The notes below the pieces were generated by a model. The model was not told where the DNA came from. It ran no database searches and was given only the letters and a program-made list of their open reading frames with translations. A stretch of DNA of 64,000 nt from Acidisarcina polymorpha. GTDB taxonomy: Bacteria; Acidobacteriota; Terriglobia; Terriglobales; Acidobacteriaceae. The position numbers were made by a program, and so were the translations under genes. This document shows positions 31,365 through 40,004 of this stretch, piece by piece. Location of the stretch: positions 4,092,001 through 4,156,000 of the forward strand of contig NZ_CP030840.1 in NCBI RefSeq assembly GCF_003330725.1, written 5' to 3'. The stretch's first letter is position 1. Each line of letters begins with the position of its first letter.

Positions 31365-31578
31365 TCTCCCTTGCTTTGCTCAGATGCAATCAGCGGACGT
31401 CGCCAGGCGAATCCGCTCTCGCAAAGTATTTCATAAGGAATAGCGGTGGCCCGTTCTGGTTGGCGCCTAACTTCTGCGAACATGGATCATCGCGGCTTTT
31501 ACTCCTTGAACTCATTGGACCGCCAAGCTTGTGCTACGAAACGGAGCGATTTTGAGTGTTTCATCTCTGAGGAATTTG

Positions 31579-32772
31579 ATGTTCTCCGATCGCCCCCCAG
31601 GCGATCCATCTTCGTTCTGGCTTTTAGGTCAATTTGGCGGGTGGCGCACCAGGACTGCCATTCTGCTTGTTCTTCTGTTGGCGCAAGTGCGAGGCGCTAC
31701 CGCGCAGCCAGTTGTAACCGCTTATGTTTTTGCGAAAGACAGCCTGATCGCCCCGGCTCAAATCGACGCCCGGAAGCTCACGCGGGTGAACTACGCATTT
31801 GCCAATATCGCTAAAGGCCGCATGGTGGAAGGCTATGCGAGCGATGAAGCAAATTTTGCCACTCTCAACTCATTGAAACTCGAAAATCCTGGCCTGACGG
31901 TGCTGGTATCGGTAGGAGGGTGGCTATGGTCGGGAGGATTCTCCGATATGGCGTTGACGCCGGCCAGCCGCGCCATCTTCATCGACAGCGTGGCGGATTT
32001 TGTCGTGCGCTACAAGCTCGATGGACTGGACATTGATTGGGAATATCCCGGTATGGCCGGAGCAGGGAACCCCTTCCGGTCCGAAGACAAGCAGAACTAC
32101 ACGCTGTTGCTCAAAGAACTGCGCGAGCGCTTCGACAAGGTCGAGAAGCAGATCCATCGCCGACTCTACATCACCATCGCTACCGGCGCATCAACCGAGT
32201 TTCTGGAGCACACCGACATGAGGACCGTGCAGAAGCTCGTCGACACGGTCAACCTGATGAGCTACGACTACTATGAGCCAGGAGTGGATAAGATCACCGG
32301 CAACCACGCGCCATTGTTTGTCGATCCCTCCGATCCAAAAGCGGTTTCTGCAGATCAATCCGTAAGGGATTTCGAGCAAGCCGGTGTGCCCGCATCCAAA
32401 CTGGTGCTGGGCGTACCTTTCTACGGGCACGTATGGGGACAGGTTCCGCCGTTGAATCATGGTTTGTTTCAGGCAGGAGCGCCCGTACCCAACGCCTTCG
32501 CCAACTACGCGTCAATCGCGACTACCATGCTGGGTCAGGGCTACTCTCGTTATTGGAATGAGAAGGCTTCGGTGCCCTACCTATACAACGCCGAGAAGCG
32601 AATCTTCGTCTCCTATGAAGATGCCGAGTCGCTTTCGGTGAAGTGCAAGTACGTGCTGGATCATCATCTCGCGGGAGTCATGTTCTGGGACTATACGAGC
32701 GATCCCTCGGGCGCATTGCTCGGCGCGATCCATTCGGCGCTCAGGCCAAGTGCCAAGGACGCTCAAAAGTGA
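31579..32772 (+). CDS. secreted GH18 chitinase-like glycoside hydrolase
   Basis: A 397-residue exported enzyme. After a signal peptide (RTRTAILLVLLLAQVRGATAQ overall at residues 25-45; core AILLVLLLAQV) comes a GH18 TIM barrel. The catalytic DGLDIDWEYPG at 148-158 carries the DxxDxDxE motif with Glu155 as the acid, and NLMSYDYYEPG and GVMFWDYTSDPSG are the later barrel strands. Substrate-assisted hydrolysis of beta-1,4-GlcNAc bonds in chitin is expected. The ATG at 31579 follows GAGGA; the frame is open further to a GTG at 31531. The GH2 glucosaminidase-like gene lies 0.8 kb away in the same direction, across kdsC. Confidence 0.88.
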   Translation: MFSDRPPGDPSSFWLLGQFGGWRTRTAILLVLLLAQVRGATAQPVVTAYVFAKDSLIAPAQIDARKLTRVNYAFANIAKGRMVEGYASDEANFATLNSLKLENPGLTVLVSVGGWLWSGGFSDMALTPASRAIFIDSVADFVVRYKLDGLDIDWEYPGMAGAGNPFRSEDKQNYTLLLKELRERFDKVEKQIHRRLYITIATGASTEFLEHTDMRTVQKLVDTVNLMSYDYYEPGVDKITGNHAPLFVDPSDPKAVSADQSVRDFEQAGVPASKLVLGVPFYGHVWGQVPPLNHGLFQAGAPVPNAFANYASIATTMLGQGYSRYWNEKASVPYLYNAEKRIFVSYEDAESLSVKCKYVLDHHLAGVMFWDYTSDPSGALLGAIHSALRPSAKDAQK

Positions 32773-32919
32773 GTGTCAGAAGCAGCGCAGGTGTTGAGCA
32801 AAACAGAGCCGCCCTAAGCAAGCCGAGGAGTCGTTCTGTAGGTTCTTTCTTAGCGAAAAAGCTCGTCTAGAGTAGCTGTTCCACATTACACCTGCTCTGC
32901 TTTGCTCTAGCATGGAGGC

Positions 32920-33504
32920 ATGTCCGATACCATGCTTGCTTCCCTGGCCTCGCCCGATGTGCTCTCTCGTGCCCGCAAGATCAAGCTCTTCCTCATGGAT
33001 GTGGACGGCACCCTCACTGATGGGGGCGTCTGCCTGATCGGAAGGGTGGCCGCGGAAGGCCCGGAAGCCGGGGCGGTCACCGAGATGAAGGTCTTCAACG
33101 CTCAGGATGGTCAAGGCCTGTCTCTGGCCCACACCATGGGCATTCAGACTGGGTTCATCACCGGACGCCACTCCCCCGCGGTCGCACAACGCGCCAAAGA
33201 GTTGAAGGTTCGCTTCGTCTATCTCGGTCAAGCTAAAAAGACCGTGGCTTTCGAGGAATGTGTCAAGCAGGCCGGAGTTTCCGAAGAAGAGGTCGCGTAC
33301 ATGGGCGACGATCTCCCCGACATCCCCCTCGCCCAGCGCGCTGGACTTGCGGTATGCGTGGCCAACGGCGCCCCGGAGTTGCAAGCAGTCTGTCATTACA
33401 CCACAAGCCGCCTGGCCGGCCAAGGCGCCGCGCGAGAGATCGTGGAACTCATTCTTAAATCGCAGGGCCGGTGGGAGGAAGCAGTTCCTCTGGCATTGGC
33501 ATAA
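32920..33504 (+). CDS. kdsC: 3-deoxy-D-manno-octulosonate 8-phosphate phosphatase KdsC
   Basis: HAD-superfamily (subclass C0/IIIA) phosphatase that releases Kdo from Kdo-8-phosphate for the lipopolysaccharide core. The 194-residue protein has the nucleophile motif LFLMDVDGTLTDGG (Asp27, Asp29), the motif II region GIQTGFITGRHS, motif III Lys in LGQAKKTVAF and motif IV YMGDDLPDIPLAQRAGL. The region between Gly40 and Ala54 (GRVAAEGPEAGAV) is longer than in E. coli. GGAGG is only two bases before the ATG at 32920, so an in-frame ATG at 32932 is possible. Confidence 0.92.
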   Translation: MSDTMLASLASPDVLSRARKIKLFLMDVDGTLTDGGVCLIGRVAAEGPEAGAVTEMKVFNAQDGQGLSLAHTMGIQTGFITGRHSPAVAQRAKELKVRFVYLGQAKKTVAFEECVKQAGVSEEEVAYMGDDLPDIPLAQRAGLAVCVANGAPELQAVCHYTTSRLAGQGAAREIVELILKSQGRWEEAVPLALA

Positions 33505-33567
33505 GTCCCTCATTCGAGACCTCGACCGCTCCCGGCAAGCAAGGTATGGTGAAGCTGGGAGATTTGA

Positions 33568-36500
33568 ATGACCACATCCAGACGGGATTTTCTGAAGAAC
33601 ACGATGATCGCGAGCGCAGGAATTTCCCTGCCCGCTCTGCCGGCTTTGGCGTCTTCTTCGCACGAGGCAAATGAAGTGTTAGCTCAGGCGGCCCAGTCAT
33701 CCGGTGCATCTTCTGGGGTCGACTTAGGGTTTACTCGCGGTATCGGTCTCTATCCTGGTGCTCCCTCTGAGAATTTTGCTCCCGAGCTAATAATCGACGC
33801 GTCCACCTACCGGAACCTGGCGCTACTTCGACCCGCCTATCATTCCAGCAGCTACGACTACAACCTGACCGCGCAGCTCGTGACCGACGGCATCAAGGAC
33901 ACCCATCTTCCAACTTGGATTTCTACGTCGGTAAGCGGGCGCGGCATCCTGCCAAAGGCCGAGCGGGAGATGCTCCTCGATCACTTTCATTCCAACCTGA
34001 TCGAGCTAGAAGGTCCGCAGGTGGTAGTCCAGTTCAGGATCGGCGGCGGGGAGGAAGCCCCGTCGGTCGATCGTCTCGCTGTATTCGCGGTGCTCTCGGA
34101 CAAAATTCCCGTGGAGAGCTTGACCTTTACAGTTTCAGTCTCCGAGGATGGCCGCGAGTGGCAGCCCGTCGGCAAAGCCAACGCCTCAGAGCCTCTTTCT
34201 CCAACGGACTATCCGCCGGATATTACCCGAGGAAGACACCTCTTCTATCCTTCCATTCCTCTTCAGCAGACCTCTCAGCATCGGTACTACCAGGTAGAGT
34301 GCGCGTGCTCATCGGCGGACTTCGCCGAGATGCAATGGGGTCTCGGTCAGGTGGAGTTCTACCAAGGTGAGCGGCGTGTCCAGATCGGTGGCCCATACAG
34401 CTTTACCAGCGCGTGGATGAGCGCAGGACTCGACGAGGAATGGGTTTACGTCGACCTTGGCGCTCGATGTGAATTCGACCGGATCGCCCTGTACTGGATT
34501 GCTCGCGCAGCGGAGGGTTCGGTGCAGGTGTCTGACGACGCCAGATCCTGGAGCCACGTGCTTCCTCTTCCCGGCGGATCGGCAATGGTCGACGATCTCA
34601 AGCTGGCAACGCCGGCGAAAGGCCGCTATGTGCGCGTGCTGATGACGCGCCCAACCTCTCCCGATGGATACATACTGAGCGAACTCGAAGTCTATGGAAG
34701 AGGCGGCCCGATCGTTAAGCCAAGAGCCATGCCTTTAGCCCAAAGTGAAAGACGCATCGACCTGGCCGGAGGTGCTTGGCGGTTGCAACGCGCAAGTCTT
34801 GTCACAGGTACTGGAGAATCTCTATCGCACCCCGAGTTCAAAAATGAGGATTGGGTGGTCGCGACTGTTCCCGGCACGGCACTCACCTCCTATTTCAATG
34901 CCCGCGCCATCCCGGATCCTAACTTCGGCGAGAACCAGCTTCACATCTCGGATTCCTTCTTCTGCTCGGATTTCTGGTACCGGACCGAGTTCAATATTGC
35001 CCCGATCCCTGCCGGAGAGATTGCGTGGCTCAACCTGGACGGCATCAACTGGAAGGCAGATGTCTTTCTCAATGGCGAGAAGTTGGGACGCATTGAAGGC
35101 GGCTTTCATCGCGGCCAGTTCGACATCACCGCCAAGCTGGCAGCCGGAAAACCGAACATCCTGGTATTGAAGGTTGAAAAGAACGCTACGCCGGGCAGCA
35201 CCAAGCAGAAGACGCTCGAGAACGTCGGTAAAAACGGAGGCGCACTCGGCGCCGATAATCCGACCTATCACGCCTCGATAGGTTGGGATTGGATCCCGAC
35301 CATTCGGGGAAGGAACAGTGGTATCTGGGGCAATGTTTATTTGACCTTAACCGGGCAGGTGACACTCGAGAACCCCTTCATCACCTGCAAACTGCCGCTT
35401 CCCGACACCTCAAGCGCCGAAGTAACGGTCAACGTGGATTTGGTCAACCACGGAACTAAGCCCATCTCCGGGACTTTGCGCGGACTTTTCGGCAGCGTAC
35501 CGTTCGAACAGCATGTCGTTGTGGAAGCTTCGACACGAAAGAGCATCCAGCTCGATCCCACAACGCATCCAGAGCTGCGCCTGAAAAGTCCAGAGTTGTG
35601 GTGGCCTGCGGGCTATGGAGCCCCCCACCTCTATGACGTCGAGCTCAGATTCGAGATGAAGGACCGGAAGGTGCTCGACAAGAAAACGTTCAAGGCGGGT
35701 GTCCGTCAGTTTACCTACAGCGAAGAAAACAGCGCGCTCAAGATATGGATCAATGGACGCCGGTTCATCGCCCGGGGCGGGAATTGGGGCTTCGGGGAAT
35801 CGATGCTCCGCTACCGCGCTCGCGAGTATGATGCTTCCGTTCGTTATCACCGTGAGATGAACTTCACCATGATCCGCAACTGGGTTGGCCAGATCGGAGA
35901 CGATGCTTTTTACGAGGCTTGCGATCGACATGGAATCGTCGTATGGCAAGATTTTTGGCTCGCCAACCCGTGGGACGGTCCGATTCCCGAAGATAACGAC
36001 CTCTTCATGAGCAACGCAAAAGATTTTGTGTTGCGAATTCGCAATCACGCCAGCATCGGACTCTACTGCGGCAGAAACGAAGGCATTCCTCCGAAGCCGT
36101 TAGAAGACGCTATCCGCAAGATGCTGCCCCAGCTCCATCCAGGACTGCACTACATTCCAAGCTCCGCCGACCTCGTTGTCAGCGGTCACGGTCCTTATCA
36201 GGCGCTGCCGCCGGTGAATTACTTCCGCATCGTGGATGCCAAGCTGCATAGCGAGATCGGTATGCCGAACATCCCCTCGCTTGAAAGTGTGAAAGCAATG
36301 ATGCCTGAAACCGCTCTGTGGCCCCAGGGGCTCAGTTGGGGACTGCACGACTTTTGCCTCGACGGGGCGCAGGGTGGCAGCGGTTTCCGATCCATCATCG
36401 ATCATGGCTATGGGGGCGCTACCAGCGCCGAAGAGTGGATCTCGCTCGCGCAATTCGTGAACTACGAGGGCTATCGGGCGATGTTCGAGGCGCAGAGCAA

Positions 36501-37218
36501 ATATCGCATGGGCCTGCTGTTATGGATGAGCCATCCCTGCTGGCCGTCGTTTGTATGGCAAACCTACGATTATTTTCTCGAACCCACCTCCGCTTACTTC
36601 GGCTGCAAAAAAGCGTCCGAACCGCTGCACATCCAATGGAACCGCCTGACCGACACCGTGGAAGTGGTGAACTACAACGGCGGGAATGCCACTGGACTTA
36701 CCGCCAAGGTCGACATCTTGAACATGAACGGGTCGACCATGTGGTCGAAGACCGCTACTCTCGATAGCGCTGAAGACAGTACCTCTCAATGCATTCCGAT
36801 GGAGTATCCAACCGGCCTCGATCCGGTGCATTTCCTGCGACTATCCCTGACACGCGGAGCAACCGTCCTCTCCAAAAATATCTACATGCGCGGGCGAGAC
36901 GAGAATGACTACCGGGCAATCCGCCAACTGGCAAAAGCCAAGGTGAGGACTGTCACCAGCGCGGAGCGGCAAGGCGACCTCTGGTGGCTGACCACCAATA
37001 TCGAAAACACCTCGGCCTACCCGGCTTTGATGGTGCGACTGCAGGCCGTCCGGGAAAGCACCGGGGACCGCATTCTTCCCGCTATCTACGAAGACAATTA
37101 CCTTACGCTTATGCCCGGCGATCGCCAGACGATCAAAACCGAGCTGCGTCACGCTGATACTCGCGGAGAAAGACCCCGCATGGTGATTGGAGGATTCAAC
37201 GTAGAGCCGATCTCCTAA
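33568..37218 (+). CDS. Tat-exported GH2 glycoside hydrolase, exo-glucosaminidase-like, with discoidin domain
   Basis: A 1216-residue exported enzyme. A Tat signal begins it (TSRRDFLKN, hydrophobic stretch ISLPALPALA). An F5/8-type-C discoidin-like domain lies at about 270-380, with the GH2 sugar-binding domain at about 393-560 and a GH2 immunoglobulin-like domain at about 600-720. The TIM barrel begins at GGNWGFGESMLRYRA. YCGRNEG gives acid/base Glu838, and LHSEIGMP gives the probable nucleophile Glu896. Overall order and the NxxWxG-rich barrel resemble exo-beta-D-glucosaminidases (CsxA type) or beta-mannosidases. With the nearby GH18 enzyme, chitosan or chitin breakdown is the simplest reading. 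GGGAGA precedes the ATG. Confidence 0.85.
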   Translation: MTTSRRDFLKNTMIASAGISLPALPALASSSHEANEVLAQAAQSSGASSGVDLGFTRGIGLYPGAPSENFAPELIIDASTYRNLALLRPAYHSSSYDYNLTAQLVTDGIKDTHLPTWISTSVSGRGILPKAEREMLLDHFHSNLIELEGPQVVVQFRIGGGEEAPSVDRLAVFAVLSDKIPVESLTFTVSVSEDGREWQPVGKANASEPLSPTDYPPDITRGRHLFYPSIPLQQTSQHRYYQVECACSSADFAEMQWGLGQVEFYQGERRVQIGGPYSFTSAWMSAGLDEEWVYVDLGARCEFDRIALYWIARAAEGSVQVSDDARSWSHVLPLPGGSAMVDDLKLATPAKGRYVRVLMTRPTSPDGYILSELEVYGRGGPIVKPRAMPLAQSERRIDLAGGAWRLQRASLVTGTGESLSHPEFKNEDWVVATVPGTALTSYFNARAIPDPNFGENQLHISDSFFCSDFWYRTEFNIAPIPAGEIAWLNLDGINWKADVFLNGEKLGRIEGGFHRGQFDITAKLAAGKPNILVLKVEKNATPGSTKQKTLENVGKNGGALGADNPTYHASIGWDWIPTIRGRNSGIWGNVYLTLTGQVTLENPFITCKLPLPDTSSAEVTVNVDLVNHGTKPISGTLRGLFGSVPFEQHVVVEASTRKSIQLDPTTHPELRLKSPELWWPAGYGAPHLYDVELRFEMKDRKVLDKKTFKAGVRQFTYSEENSALKIWINGRRFIARGGNWGFGESMLRYRAREYDASVRYHREMNFTMIRNWVGQIGDDAFYEACDRHGIVVWQDFWLANPWDGPIPEDNDLFMSNAKDFVLRIRNHASIGLYCGRNEGIPPKPLEDAIRKMLPQLHPGLHYIPSSADLVVSGHGPYQALPPVNYFRIVDAKLHSEIGMPNIPSLESVKAMMPETALWPQGLSWGLHDFCLDGAQGGSGFRSIIDHGYGGATSAEEWISLAQFVNYEGYRAMFEAQSKYRMGLLLWMSHPCWPSFVWQTYDYFLEPTSAYFGCKKASEPLHIQWNRLTDTVEVVNYNGGNATGLTAKVDILNMNGSTMWSKTATLDSAEDSTSQCIPMEYPTGLDPVHFLRLSLTRGATVLSKNIYMRGRDENDYRAIRQLAKAKVRTVTSAERQGDLWWLTTNIENTSAYPALMVRLQAVRESTGDRILPAIYEDNYLTLMPGDRQTIKTELRHADTRGERPRMVIGGFNVEPIS

Positions 37219-37338: not shown

Positions 37339-38556
37339 ATGTCAGCGACTGCTGGATCACTTCATCCTGTTGGGAGTCCGGCTGCTACGGATGCTCTCGC
37401 TCAATCGTCAATTCAGAGAGTTTCCGTTCCCTGGTATGTCTGGTGCGGTGTCCTGGCGGTGACGTCGGCGGCAATTGGCGGGGCGTGGGATGTTTCCTGG
37501 CACCGCTCGATCGGCCGAGACAGTTTCTGGACGCCAGCGCATATGGCGATTTATGCATGTGGGGTGCTGGCCGCCGTAGTCTGCGGCTACTTGATCTTTG
37601 CGACCACCTTCGGCAAGTCGCAACAACTGAAAAAAATCTCGGTTAGTGTGCTCGGCTTTCGTGCACCCTTAGGTGCATTCATCGCAGCCTGGGGCGGCAT
37701 TGCGATGTTGACCTCTGCTCCCTTCGACAATTGGTGGCACTCGGCTTATGGTCTCGACGTCAAGATTGTCAGTCCGCCGCATACGCTGCTGATTCTCGGA
37801 ATCAGGGCGGTGGGCGTCGGCGTGCTCTTCCTAATTCTGAGCGCCATGAACCGGGCGATCACCGATGGCCATACGGAAGACCAGGGTTACCACAAACTTC
37901 AGCTCCTTTTTCTCTTTCTGGGTGGCTTGATCGTCTCCGGACAAATGTTTTTCCTGCTGGAATATACCTGGGATGTCATGCTCCACGGCTCGACTGCCTA
38001 CGTGGCAATGGCGATTGCCGTACCAGTAGCGCTGGCTATGCTCTCTCGTGCTTCACAGCATCGTTGGGCAGCGACGCTTGCGGCCGCTGTTTACACGATT
38101 TTTGCGATCGCGGAAATCCTCATTCTGCCGCTCTTTCCCGCACAGCCGAAGCTCGGGCCGGTCTTCTATCCGGTGACGCACCTGGTGCCAGCCAAGTTCC
38201 CGATCTTGATCATTGTTCCGGCCCTGGCTCTCGATCTGTTATGGAAGCGGACCAGAGCGTGGAAGACCTGGCAGGTTGCGCTGCTCTCAGGCGCGGTCTT
38301 CGTCGCAGTCCTGGTTGCGGTCGAGTGGCCCGTCGCCAGTTTCCTCATGACGCCCGCATCGGCAAACCGCTTCTTTGGAACGATGTATTTCGATTACAAC
38401 TCGCCTTCGTGGGGAGTGGATCGTTTGCGGCAGTTCATCGAAACCCAACAGGGCCTGGCCCTCTTTCGCGGTCTGAGCCTCGCTGCGATCTGCGCTTCCG
38501 TCGGCGTTTGGATCGGCCTGAGCTTTGGCAGCTGGATGCGGAAGGTCCAGCGGTGA
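37339..38556 (+). CDS. polytopic membrane protein with conserved-looking Trp/His motifs, function unknown
   Basis: A 405-residue inner-membrane protein with about nine or ten hydrophobic helices. Between them are two similar loops rich in Trp and His: WDVSWHRSIGRDSFWTPAH (about residues 50-68) and PFDNWWHSAYGLDVKIVSPPH (about 128-148; shown only in part as DNWWHSAYGLDV and SPPH). Repeated D-x-x-W-H and P-x-H near the membrane surface suggest metal or haem ligation; this is inference. GGAGG precedes the ATG at 37339. The next gene starts inside its stop codon (GTGA overlap), so the two are coupled and probably act together. I do not recognise a named family. Confidence 0.7.
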   Translation: MSATAGSLHPVGSPAATDALAQSSIQRVSVPWYVWCGVLAVTSAAIGGAWDVSWHRSIGRDSFWTPAHMAIYACGVLAAVVCGYLIFATTFGKSQQLKKISVSVLGFRAPLGAFIAAWGGIAMLTSAPFDNWWHSAYGLDVKIVSPPHTLLILGIRAVGVGVLFLILSAMNRAITDGHTEDQGYHKLQLLFLFLGGLIVSGQMFFLLEYTWDVMLHGSTAYVAMAIAVPVALAMLSRASQHRWAATLAAAVYTIFAIAEILILPLFPAQPKLGPVFYPVTHLVPAKFPILIIVPALALDLLWKRTRAWKTWQVALLSGAVFVAVLVAVEWPVASFLMTPASANRFFGTMYFDYNSPSWGVDRLRQFIETQQGLALFRGLSLAAICASVGVWIGLSFGSWMRKVQR

Positions 38557-40004
38557 GGATGCTTGGCGCAGTCTTCCTCCTGGCCTTGATTCTGCCGCAA
38601 TCCGCGCATGCGCATGTGGGCAGTAAAGATGTCTTTCAGCAAGTTACGGCTGGACCGTACAAACTTTTTGTTACGGTTCGTATGCCGGATGTAATTCCGG
38701 GGGTTGCGAACGTCGAAGTGCGGTCGACGGGAGCGGCGATCTCGACGCTGAAAATCACTCCCATGCCGATTACCGGGGAAGCGTCGAAGCACCCGCCCAC
38801 CGCGGACACGATGAAGGTTTCGCCGGTTGATCCCGCATTTTATACCGGCGGAGTATGGATGATGAGCTCCGGCTCCTGGGAGGTAAGGCTCGACATAACC
38901 GGCGCTGGGGGCGACGCGACAGCCTCCGTGCCGGTGCTGGCAGTCGCGATCGCGACACTGCAGATGCAGCGAAAGCTGGGCGTACCGCTAGCCTTGCTCG
39001 GCCTCTTCTTGATCATCAGTATGGCGGGCGTGGTCGGCGCGGCTTTTCGCGAAGCGCGGCTGCCCGCGGGTGAGGCAGTGACTCCACAGTTGCGCCGGCG
39101 CGGCCTTATCGCGACAGTATGTGGCCTGGCATTTATGGCTTTGCTGGTATGGGGAGGCGCGAAGTGGTGGCACGTCGAGGCGGCGAGTTACGCGGAGGAC
39201 ATCTATCGTCCTCCGTTAGCGCAGGCCAGCCTGTCGGGAAATACACTTGATCTAAAGGTAGAATCGTTTCTCTCCGGCAAGACATTCCGCGATTCCGCAA
39301 CCGCATCTCTGCTGCCGGACCACGGTCATTTGATTCATCTCTATGCGATCCGAAAGCCGGGAATGGATGCGGCGTTCCACCTTCATCCCGAACTTGTCGC
39401 GCCGGGAGATTTCCGCATGGCGCTGCCCAGCATGCCTCCAGGTACCTACGCGCTCTATGGAGATATTGTCCATGCAAATGGCTTTCCCGAGACGCTCGTG
39501 ACCACGCTCGAGGTTCCGCCTGGCATGCATGGCGCCCCGCTTGCTCCGGAAGATGCTTCTGCTTTTCCTGCACCGCTCGGCAACGGGCTGAATGCCGGAC
39601 AACTCGGCGACTCCTACAAGCTGCCCGATGGCTACACAATGGTCTGGGATCGTCCGACGCCGCTGACCGCCGATACCGCGTACTCCTTCCGCTTTCACCT
39701 GCTTGCGCCTGACGGCTCGCCAGCCAGCAATATGCAGCCGTATCTCGGCATGGCCGGTCATGCGGCTTTTGTCAAGACTGACGGAAGTGTATTCGCCCAT
39801 ACTCATCCCGAAGGCTCCGCGGCTATGCCCGCTGTCATGCTCGCCAATGGGATGGATGGGGGCATGAATATGGCTTCCGAACCGGTCACCAGCACCGTGG
39901 AGTTTCCGTATGGATTTCCCAAACCTGGAGCCTACCGGATCTTCATCCAAATGAAGCATGGAACGACCGTGGAGACAGGGGTCTTTGACGCGATCGCCCA
40001 GTAA
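38553..40004 (+). CDS. exported/membrane-anchored His- and Met-rich protein, partner of the preceding gene
   Basis: A 483-residue protein with a signal peptide (RMLGAVFLLALILPQSAHA). A first periplasmic beta domain (about 20-130) is followed by two membrane helices (about 142-165 and 185-205) and a large C-terminal periplasmic region. That region holds several His clusters (LPDHGHLIHLYAI, AAFHLHPEL, FAHTHPEG) and a Met-rich stretch (AVMLANGMDGGMNMAS). Similar HxH arrangements occur in YtkA/FixH-like and copper-handling proteins, so metal binding is a reasonable guess. The GTG at 38553 overlaps the upstream stop by 4 bp and keeps an Arg in the signal n-region; an ATG lies at 38559. Confidence 0.75.
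   Translation: MRMLGAVFLLALILPQSAHAHVGSKDVFQQVTAGPYKLFVTVRMPDVIPGVANVEVRSTGAAISTLKITPMPITGEASKHPPTADTMKVSPVDPAFYTGGVWMMSSGSWEVRLDITGAGGDATASVPVLAVAIATLQMQRKLGVPLALLGLFLIISMAGVVGAAFREARLPAGEAVTPQLRRRGLIATVCGLAFMALLVWGGAKWWHVEAASYAEDIYRPPLAQASLSGNTLDLKVESFLSGKTFRDSATASLLPDHGHLIHLYAIRKPGMDAAFHLHPELVAPGDFRMALPSMPPGTYALYGDIVHANGFPETLVTTLEVPPGMHGAPLAPEDASAFPAPLGNGLNAGQLGDSYKLPDGYTMVWDRPTPLTADTAYSFRFHLLAPDGSPASNMQPYLGMAGHAAFVKTDGSVFAHTHPEGSAAMPAVMLANGMDGGMNMASEPVTSTVEFPYGFPKPGAYRIFIQMKHGTTVETGVFDAIAQ

Follow-up and report, generated by a model that had tools for sequence, protein, structure and literature searches.

Aerobic oxidation of methane and of ammonia begins with a reaction performed by copper membrane monooxygenases (CuMMOs), and both their origin and the parts needed for their catalysis are debated. 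Their PmoB subunit is laid out as a beta domain, two transmembrane (TM) helices, and an outer beta part. The present analysis concerns a pair of adjacent genes, gene 1 and gene 2, in a 64,000-nucleotide stretch of Acidisarcina polymorpha (NZ_CP030840.1; this whole stretch is hereafter the window, G000:C1:4092001-4156000), which lies within a 7.6 Mb genome (G000) where the DNA of the pair and the gene 1 profile have one match each. Among the closest known proteins is PmoC of particulate methane monooxygenase (pMMO), in which, according to PMC12576850, the CuC site is formed by D156, H160, and H173 and the CuD site by N227, H231, and H245, while R165 bonds a site water; CuD is taken as the active site of pMMO, ringed by F177, F240, and F248, in PMC11194816.

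In this pair, Acidobacteriota soil bacteria carry a stripped-down and unrecognised relative of the methane- and ammonia-oxidising copper enzyme, in which two of the three subunits are fused and the active site is altered. That the pair is related to the CuMMO superfamily, taken by itself, is held with high confidence. The initial annotation of the window had described a coupled membrane module for metal handling or oxidation, for which it knew no name; the module is supported by the conserved histidines and the co-occurrence of the two genes, and the family identity that was missed is that of a PmoC-PmoA fusion with a PmoB-like partner. No description of a PmoC-PmoA fusion or of such Acidobacteriota proteins was found in a literature search that had most subscription papers and preprints outside its range and judged papers by title, opening of the abstract, or passages; among the papers listed, PMC10504283 and PMC6688271 contain the words for fusion alongside pmoC and pmoA.

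Ligand register and domain architecture of gene 1

In an alignment of 93 gene 1 relatives, from which the window copies L001 and L002, the proteins L006, L016, and L017 of fewer than 350 amino acids (aa), and L018, without a match, were left out, D51, W54, H55, R60, H68, D130, W133, H134, and H148 are each found in 93 of 93 rows. The CuC triad of PmoC, D-x3-H-x12-H, is present in all of them, the ligand offsets (+4/+17 for CuC and +4/+18 for CuD) are the same as in PmoC in 93/93, and R60-D61 stands at the place of the R-D of PmoC. The double motif of D-x3-H-x12-H followed by [DN]-x3-H-x13-H occurs in every one of the 93 relatives, as against 0 of 20,000 shuffles of the window protein. Repeated D-x-x-W-H and P-x-H motifs had been remarked upon in the initial annotation; among the former, D51-V-S-W-H55 and D130-N-W-W-H134 are real, whereas a third, WDVMLH, keeps its histidine (H216, 92/93) and not its aspartate, and the P-x-H histidines, H68 (TPAH) and H148 (SPPH), are invariant (93/93). 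At both sites, two histidines and one carboxylate would suit iron too, with copper as the candidate metal; of the two earlier proposals, copper or haem-iron, copper is favoured because the ligand pattern is that of the PmoC copper sites, and what speaks for haem is a likeness to the b561 bundle and one weak Pfam match.

With the gene 1 protein (P0001) as the query, AmoC (PF04896, E 0.0033) is the sole Pfam match up to E 10, NCBIfam TIGR03078 is matched at E 6.1e-4, and a single-sequence search of the PDB up to E 10 returns three matches, all of them PmoC or AmoC (best 7s4l_C, E 6.4e-4, residues 31-173). From genome contigs, 182 relatives were found and 80 were kept; the alignments A1 (gene 1) and A2 (gene 2) have 76 and 75 rows. 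The profile of the 76 gene 1 relatives matches three PDB chains, each an AmoC (best E 4.3e-4), and AmoC is matched at E <= 0.1 by 13 of the 76 (best 1.5e-4), with fourteen other families matching one relative each. For profile comparison by hhalign, six canonical operons were used, from G298 (L118), G301 (L119), and plasmids of Mycolicibacterium, Rhodococcus, Mycobacterium, and Methylomagnum (L120-L123). The gene 1 profile aligns with canonical PmoC at P 1.5e-4 (probability 51.6), placing FDNWWHS on FNEWGHS and WDVSWHRSIGRDSFWTPAH on WDGSWHQTLVRDTALTPTH. When the protein is divided, the N-terminal half matches PmoC (P 1.1e-4; reversed control 0.27; PmoA 0.07) and the C-terminal half matches PmoA (P 1.2e-4; reversed control 0.35; PmoC 0.21), while the only control clusters, three unrelated membrane families, give P 0.16-0.59.

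The AlphaFold2 model of gene 1 has a predicted local distance difference test score (pLDDT) of 92.3 and a predicted template modelling score (pTM) of 0.90. Subunit A of pMMO or ammonia monooxygenase (AMO) fills the first 12 of the 50 VIA-align rows listed for it (Z 14.5-13.5), an assignment taken from the entry molecule names, some chain letters being unprinted; for example, AMO subunit A 9cl6_B pairs its residues 19-248 with model residues 176-405 over 204 residues at a root-mean-square deviation (rmsd) of 3.7. Most pMMO rows of VIA-align start at model residue 18-22. The PmoC chain 7s4m_C is superposed on residues 30-177 (137 residues, rmsd 3.3, 20% identity, Z 7.5), and the first four Foldseek rows are AMO or pMMO chains at E 0.014 and worse. 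The C-terminal half alone has no match in a sequence search of the PDB, and the PmoA family (PF02461) has none in the genome of the window (G000). From the split of the profiles together with the structural matches of the two halves, gene 1 is therefore taken to be a fusion that joins, in operon order, the copper half of PmoC and a PmoA-like domain.

Gene 2 and the one-gene actinobacterial relatives

The model of gene 2 (pLDDT 92.5) comprises a signal helix, a beta domain (27-130), TM helices at 140-167 and 178-214, and beta domains thereafter. Its alignment holds 86 rows, with L001, L002, L007, L018, L040, L047, L074, and L095 (window copies or shorter than 440 aa) and five loci without a gene 2 match left out. 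In it, H21, H262, and H276 are found in 86/86, H257, H278, H403, H416, and H418 in 85/86, and H259 in 83/86, and histidines such as H80 (48/86) and H207 are variable. The HxH clusters that had been singled out in this protein are therefore conserved in their histidines; the methionines of the accompanying MLANGMDGGMNM stretch are common among the relatives by majority consensus, without being conserved position by position. Loss of the histidines among homologues had been named beforehand as one outcome that would speak against the module, and in both genes they are kept. The signal peptide is predicted from its motif to be cleaved before H21, and canonical PmoB has AxA/H (the slash marking the cleavage) at the end of its signal peptide in 6/6 rows.

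By VIA-align, the fold of the N-terminal domain is nearest to H. pylori CrdA (Z 10.8) and also resembles CopC (Z 8.4), and two conserved residues, W102 and M104, lie close to where CuB would be expected, as placed by eye. Pfam has no match for the gene 2 protein, and YtkA is matched by 2/75 members of the family. Among 297 genomes of the phylum, the gene 2 profile matches 46, of which 16 also have gene 1, 28 match through the C-terminal half only, and 2 through a short N-domain piece only; judged by these matches, the C-terminal half is a separate, widespread domain pair. A His-rich double domain of this type was seen in separate proteins at L156, L163, and L166 (the three that were read), of which one adjoins an efflux-type membrane fusion protein and two have metal-binding-like repeats, as named by eye.

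A tblastn search of plasmids with P0001 matches 4 of 72,556 records, all actinobacterial, and the query P0004 matches 7 records. The one-gene relatives, which include WP_024126299.1 and WP_138230750.1, comprise five complete proteins (A6; Table 1), each with all six ligand positions (5/5), followed by A-x-A-H-D-P-G-Q-G and, by eye, a beta domain that comes after the AxA/H and a final TM helix. The A6 profile aligns with that of gene 1 (A1) at P 1.4e-24 (profile positions 9-216 vs 35-262), its residues 1-130 with PmoC at P 2e-5 (reversed 0.12), and its tail with the N-terminal half of gene 2 at P 1.5e-5 (reversed 0.052), the tail against PmoB giving P 0.09; in the PDB up to E 10, all five of its matches are AmoC or PmoC (best 0.0074). 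By these alignments, the one-gene fusion is an independent tie between gene 1 and the N-terminal part of gene 2.

Neighbouring genes of the one-gene relative are two P-type ATPases, a metal-sensitive regulator, a multicopper oxidase, and a four-helix copper-binding protein in Leifsonia; a P-type ATPase, a heavy-metal-associated protein, and a cupredoxin in Streptomyces mirabilis; and a multicopper oxidase, a cupredoxin, and DUF305 in Streptomyces F2. The copper neighbourhood is less clear on two Mycolicibacterium plasmids, and at the Rubrobacter locus, where the gene looks split, no copper genes stand beside it. On Mycolicibacterium chubuense pMYCCH.01, a one-gene relative and a canonical xmoCAB operon share one plasmid. 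The S. mirabilis relative (L176) is SMIR_RS41270, about ten locus tags from SMIR_41220; a cosmid named for hoxN (SMIR_41220) raised copper tolerance, according to PMC9195940.

Co-occurrence, hosts, and locus

Gene 1 is present in 16 of the 297 phylum genomes, and all 16 match gene 2; 14 of these hold both genes in full length, and two (G167 and G213) hold broken pieces of both. Both genes are found in 92 of 98 loci. The exceptions are the broken copies L016 and L017 and the fragment L018, whose genomes (G213 and G167) have remains of both genes; L066, where the locus stops at a contig end and most of gene 2 is present in the genome; and L034 and L043, where gene 1 stands alone and a full-length gene 2 lies on another contig with no gene 1 beside it. 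For every gene 1 locus examined, then, the genome also contains gene 2, whole or as remnants, so that the second outcome named beforehand as speaking against the module, homologues of one gene regularly lacking the other, was not observed in the profile searches that had been proposed at the outset. The two genes are co-inherited, the pairwise distances of their proteins being correlated at r 0.93 over 85 rows. A single in-frame TAG lies within the otherwise well-conserved gene 1 copy of G155 (L006) and gene 2 copy of G249 (L007).

By title, the kept relatives are mostly Acidobacteriota (Terriglobus roseus, Edaphobacter, Granulicella, Bryocella, Silvibacterium, and Acidipila), together with two metagenome-assembled genomes (MAGs) of Binataceae. 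In a quick tree, the Binataceae loci L081 and L087 group with L085 and L096 (support 100) inside the family. Since G297 (L081) is the sole match to the gene 1 profile among 198 genomes of its phylum, transfer is suggested; this phylum seems to include G298 (L085) as well, the sampled genomes listed for the two being the same. MAGs labelled Rhodanobacteraceae, Nevskia, and Betaproteobacteria are placed among acidobacterial rows and may be mislabelled. The PmoA family (PF02461) has no match in 30 of the 32 searched genomes with the pair, several of which are of uncertain completeness, and the other two, G298 and G301, hold a separate canonical PmoA and a pmoC-A-B operon besides the pair. Upstream of these canonical operons (L118 and L119) lies a protein that resembles, by eye, a fusion of FixH-like and SCO-like parts. 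PF04896 gives 15 weak matches, none over the cut-off, among 299 genomes from the same class as G300, which include the genomes of L024 and L061, named Terriglobia. No viral relatives were found in four scans (profile A1, canonical PmoC, canonical PmoA, and P0004), and a search of phages with P0001 found none.

The 4 bp overlap that had been reported for the two genes is borne out by the sequence GTGA, in which gene 1 ends and gene 2 starts at GTG 38553, with an alternative ATG start at 38559; an overlap of exactly 4 bp is found in 36 of the 92 two-gene loci (two of the 36 being window copies), with start codons assigned by the analyst's own rule. When the open reading frames that surround the pair are clustered, wide recurrence is confined to gene 1 itself (74 loci) and gene 2 (73 loci); other clusters of at least 12 loci are overlaps of the pair in other frames, as judged from one member per cluster, and no operon partner emerged, each non-overlapping family adjoining the pair at 10 or fewer of the 74 clustered loci. 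The neighbours tested in the window were of the types glycoside hydrolase families 18 and 2 (GH18 and GH2), two short-chain dehydrogenases/reductases, an acyltransferase, FtsX/MacB, and PMT. Upstream of the pair, window positions 31531-37218 hold a GH18 enzyme and a large GH2 enzyme of the exo-beta-D-glucosaminidase type, which likely form a neighbourhood for chitin/chitosan degradation; nothing visible connects it with the gene pair.

Table 1. Positions of the gene pair, its domains and putative metal sites in the window, and of the one-gene relatives in their own loci.
Feature	Position	Strand	Description
Gene 1	37339..38556	+	405 aa, about 10 TM helices; natural fusion of PmoC/AmoC core and PmoA/AmoA-like domain
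Gene 2	38553..40004	+	483 aa; PmoB-like layout of signal peptide and beta domain, then 2 TM helices followed by two more beta domains
PmoC-like core, residues ~30-177	37426..37869	+	Equivalent to PmoC ~108-246; PmoC N-terminus absent
CuC-like site D51-x3-H55-x12-H68 with R60-D61	37489..37542	+	Corresponds to PmoC D156, H160, H173, R165; 93/93
CuD-like site D130-x3-H134-x13-H148	37726..37782	+	Corresponds to PmoC N227, H231, H245 with Asn to Asp; 93/93
PmoA/AmoA-like domain, residues ~176-405	37864..38553	+	9cl6_B VIA-align Z 14.4; hhalign P 1.2e-4
H21, first mature residue if AxA/H is cleaved	38613..38615	+	His 86/86; AxA-like site 82/86
N-terminal beta domain of gene 2, residues ~25-130	38625..38942	+	CrdA/CopC-like fold (VIA-align); fused to gene 1 counterpart in Actinobacteria
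C-terminal double domain of gene 2, residues ~222-483	39216..40001	+	DHxHxxH, HxH, GH, HxHP clusters; His conservation
One-gene relatives, five complete proteins (A6)	L171 7944-9371; L173 7917-9362; L174 5986-7455; L175 5992-7482; L176 6004-7437		Plasmids; annotated 'hypothetical'

Proposed function and comparison with known systems

With about an even chance, the pair forms a membrane copper complex, a deep side branch of the CuMMOs, that activates O2 and oxidises a small substrate which is neither methane nor ammonia. Gene 1 would be the membrane body, its PmoC core bearing the triads D51/H55/H68 and D130/H134/H148 and its PmoA-like domain lying in the same chain. Gene 2 would assemble with it as the outer subunit at the place of PmoB, providing a mature N-terminal histidine, a CopC/CrdA-like domain, and two TM anchors, and its added His-rich double domain probably serves to gather copper or pass it on. 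At the CuD-like site, copper would bind and activate O2 with electrons from membrane quinol, and the substrate would thereby be oxidised; methane and ammonia are set aside as substrates because Asp is a ligand of this site and the phenylalanine cage around it is gone.

Several results weigh against this proposal. The CuD asparagine, kept in 6/6 canonical PmoC rows, is aspartate in 93/93 gene 1 relatives, and the phenylalanine shell is lost, as F177, F240, and F248 (canonical Phe 6/6 each) give way to Y/Q/H72, I/V143, and L151, positions that were assigned by offset from the PmoC phenylalanines. P0001 does not reach the curated cut-offs of PF04896 (17.3 vs 26.7 bits) or TIGR03078 (19.3 vs 280.6 bits), the canonical Pmo profiles are small (six rows each), Foldseek finds no PDB match for gene 1 at E <= 0.001 (best 0.014), and the Z of 7.5 for the PmoC half is below those of the unrelated talin (9.2) and cytochrome b561 (12.1, residues 26-207). 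In gene 2, the CuB HxH pair (PmoB H137-x-H139) is absent from the N-domain, whose sole conserved histidine is H21; the hhalign comparison with the PmoB profile gives P 0.067, surpassed by its reversed control (0.0087), and PmoB is not among the structural matches listed for the model by VIA-align, an absence that decides nothing. The profile comparison thus did not show gene 2 to be a PmoB homologue, and on this evidence its likeness to PmoB is one of layout only. As for the one-gene relatives, the match of their tail to gene 2 weakens to P 3.2e-4 without the signal peptide, a PmoA match of their middle part was rejected (P 0.63), and three of the five sit among copper-resistance genes, a setting that fits copper handling as well as catalysis.

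It is quite possible, if short of probable, that copper handling is the whole task of the pair, the CuMMO-related scaffold taking up, storing, relaying, or oxidising copper (e.g., Cu(I) to Cu(II)) and the His clusters of gene 2 serving as an outer collector. The copper genes near the one-gene relatives in Leifsonia, Streptomyces mirabilis, and Streptomyces F2 agree with such a task, as do the efflux-type fusion protein and metal-binding-like repeats (by eye) that accompany the C-terminal domains of gene 2 elsewhere and the N-domain fold nearest CrdA and like CopC. However, plasmids are enriched in metal resistance and the neighbourhood is biased for that reason, the two Mycolicibacterium plasmids are less clear and the Rubrobacter locus is negative, and next to the pair itself each non-overlapping gene family recurs at 10/74 loci at most; moreover, the whole invariant shell round the triads (W, R-D, P-H) seems to go beyond the needs of a copper carrier, and the PmoA-like domain is retained. 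Catalysis is favoured by the retained second shell and A-like domain, and copper handling by the location in copper islands and by the His-rich domains that have been added. A related and rather doubtful proposition is that the original work of this pMMO/AMO branch, with two genes in Acidobacteriota and Binatia-type genomes and one gene in Actinobacteria, was copper chemistry (Cu(I) oxidation or relay); if true, methane and ammonia monooxygenases would descend from a membrane protein of copper tolerance, and the arrangement kept in the one-chain form would be an early or a parallel one.

A genuine acidobacterial CuMMO with methane, ammonia, or short alkanes or alkenes as its substrate shares the scaffold, the ligand register, and the xmoCAB gene order with the pair, yet it is very unlikely in view of the CuD Asn-to-Asp change in 93/93, the replacement of the three active-site phenylalanines, the want of a PmoA family match in 30/32 searched pair genomes, the missed PF04896 and TIGR03078 cut-offs, and the canonical operon that accompanies the pair in G298 and G301. 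Since the active-site Asn and Phe are not kept, the oxidation of methane or ammonia in the strict sense was rejected. Scarcely credible is a haem or other four-helix membrane protein of the cytochrome b561 kind, with a convergent resemblance to PmoC and PmoA: the b561 row of VIA-align (Z 12.1, residues 26-207) stands above the PmoC row and Cytochrom_B561 is matched by 1/76 relatives (E 0.012), but the first 12 rows are pMMO or AMO subunit A, the His/Asp register and the WH and RD motifs are exactly those of PmoC while the reversed controls fail, and P0001 has no haem family in Pfam or NCBIfam up to E 10. The haem/b561 identity was rejected, a helical-bundle match and one weak Pfam match being set against the exact PmoC register.

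An O2-activating side branch of the CuMMOs is the preferred reading. The pair offers a natural reduced form that consists of the active-site half of PmoC and a PmoA-like domain, without the PmoC N-terminus or a recognisable PmoB, and in which nature has exchanged Asn for Asp at the proposed active site. Its hosts include culturable bacteria, such as Terriglobus roseus, Edaphobacter, and Granulicella, that are open to growth and testing, and the fused scaffold is possibly easier to express. The pair is also a possible outgroup for CuMMO phylogeny. At the same time, weak PmoC/AmoC matches in soil genomes need not signal methane or ammonia oxidation.

Compared with PmoC/AmoC (PF04896, TIGR03078), gene 1 has the same core TM helices, CuC triad, CuD His pair at +4/+18, and register of WH, RD, T, and PH; it differs in being without the N-terminal ~107 residues, in its fusion to an A-like domain, and in falling below the family cut-offs. 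With PmoA/AmoA (PF02461), it shares the fold of its C-terminal half (Z up to 14.5, 10-15% identity) and an aligned P...P...LD stretch, whereas canonical motifs such as GDWxFW and TPEYLR are, by eye, missing from this part of the fusion. Like PmoB/AmoB, gene 2 runs from a signal peptide to AxA/His, a beta domain, two TM helices, and an outer beta part, and is the next gene downstream, with H21 as the counterpart, predicted from the motif, of the mature N-terminal His33; unlike it, gene 2 has another C-terminal part of two His-rich domains, no CuB HxH, and no detectable sequence homology. P0001 has no CopD match in Pfam up to E 10, within the HMMER filters. The pair lacks the CuD Asn, the Phe shell, the CuB His pair, the three genes, and the family cut-offs of a CuMMO, and it is therefore not filed as one.

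The order of the xmoCAB operon, C and A and then a B-like gene, is the same here, but with two genes in place of three, as C and A are fused. The periplasmic copper proteins of the CopC/CrdA/YtkA type have a fold in common with residues ~25-130 of gene 2, in which, however, two TM helices anchor the domain and a membrane body like PmoC/PmoA is linked to it. The one-gene relatives, a single chain without the His-rich double domain, share with the pair the PmoC core, a likeness that extends into the first A-like helices, and the AxA/H beta domain.

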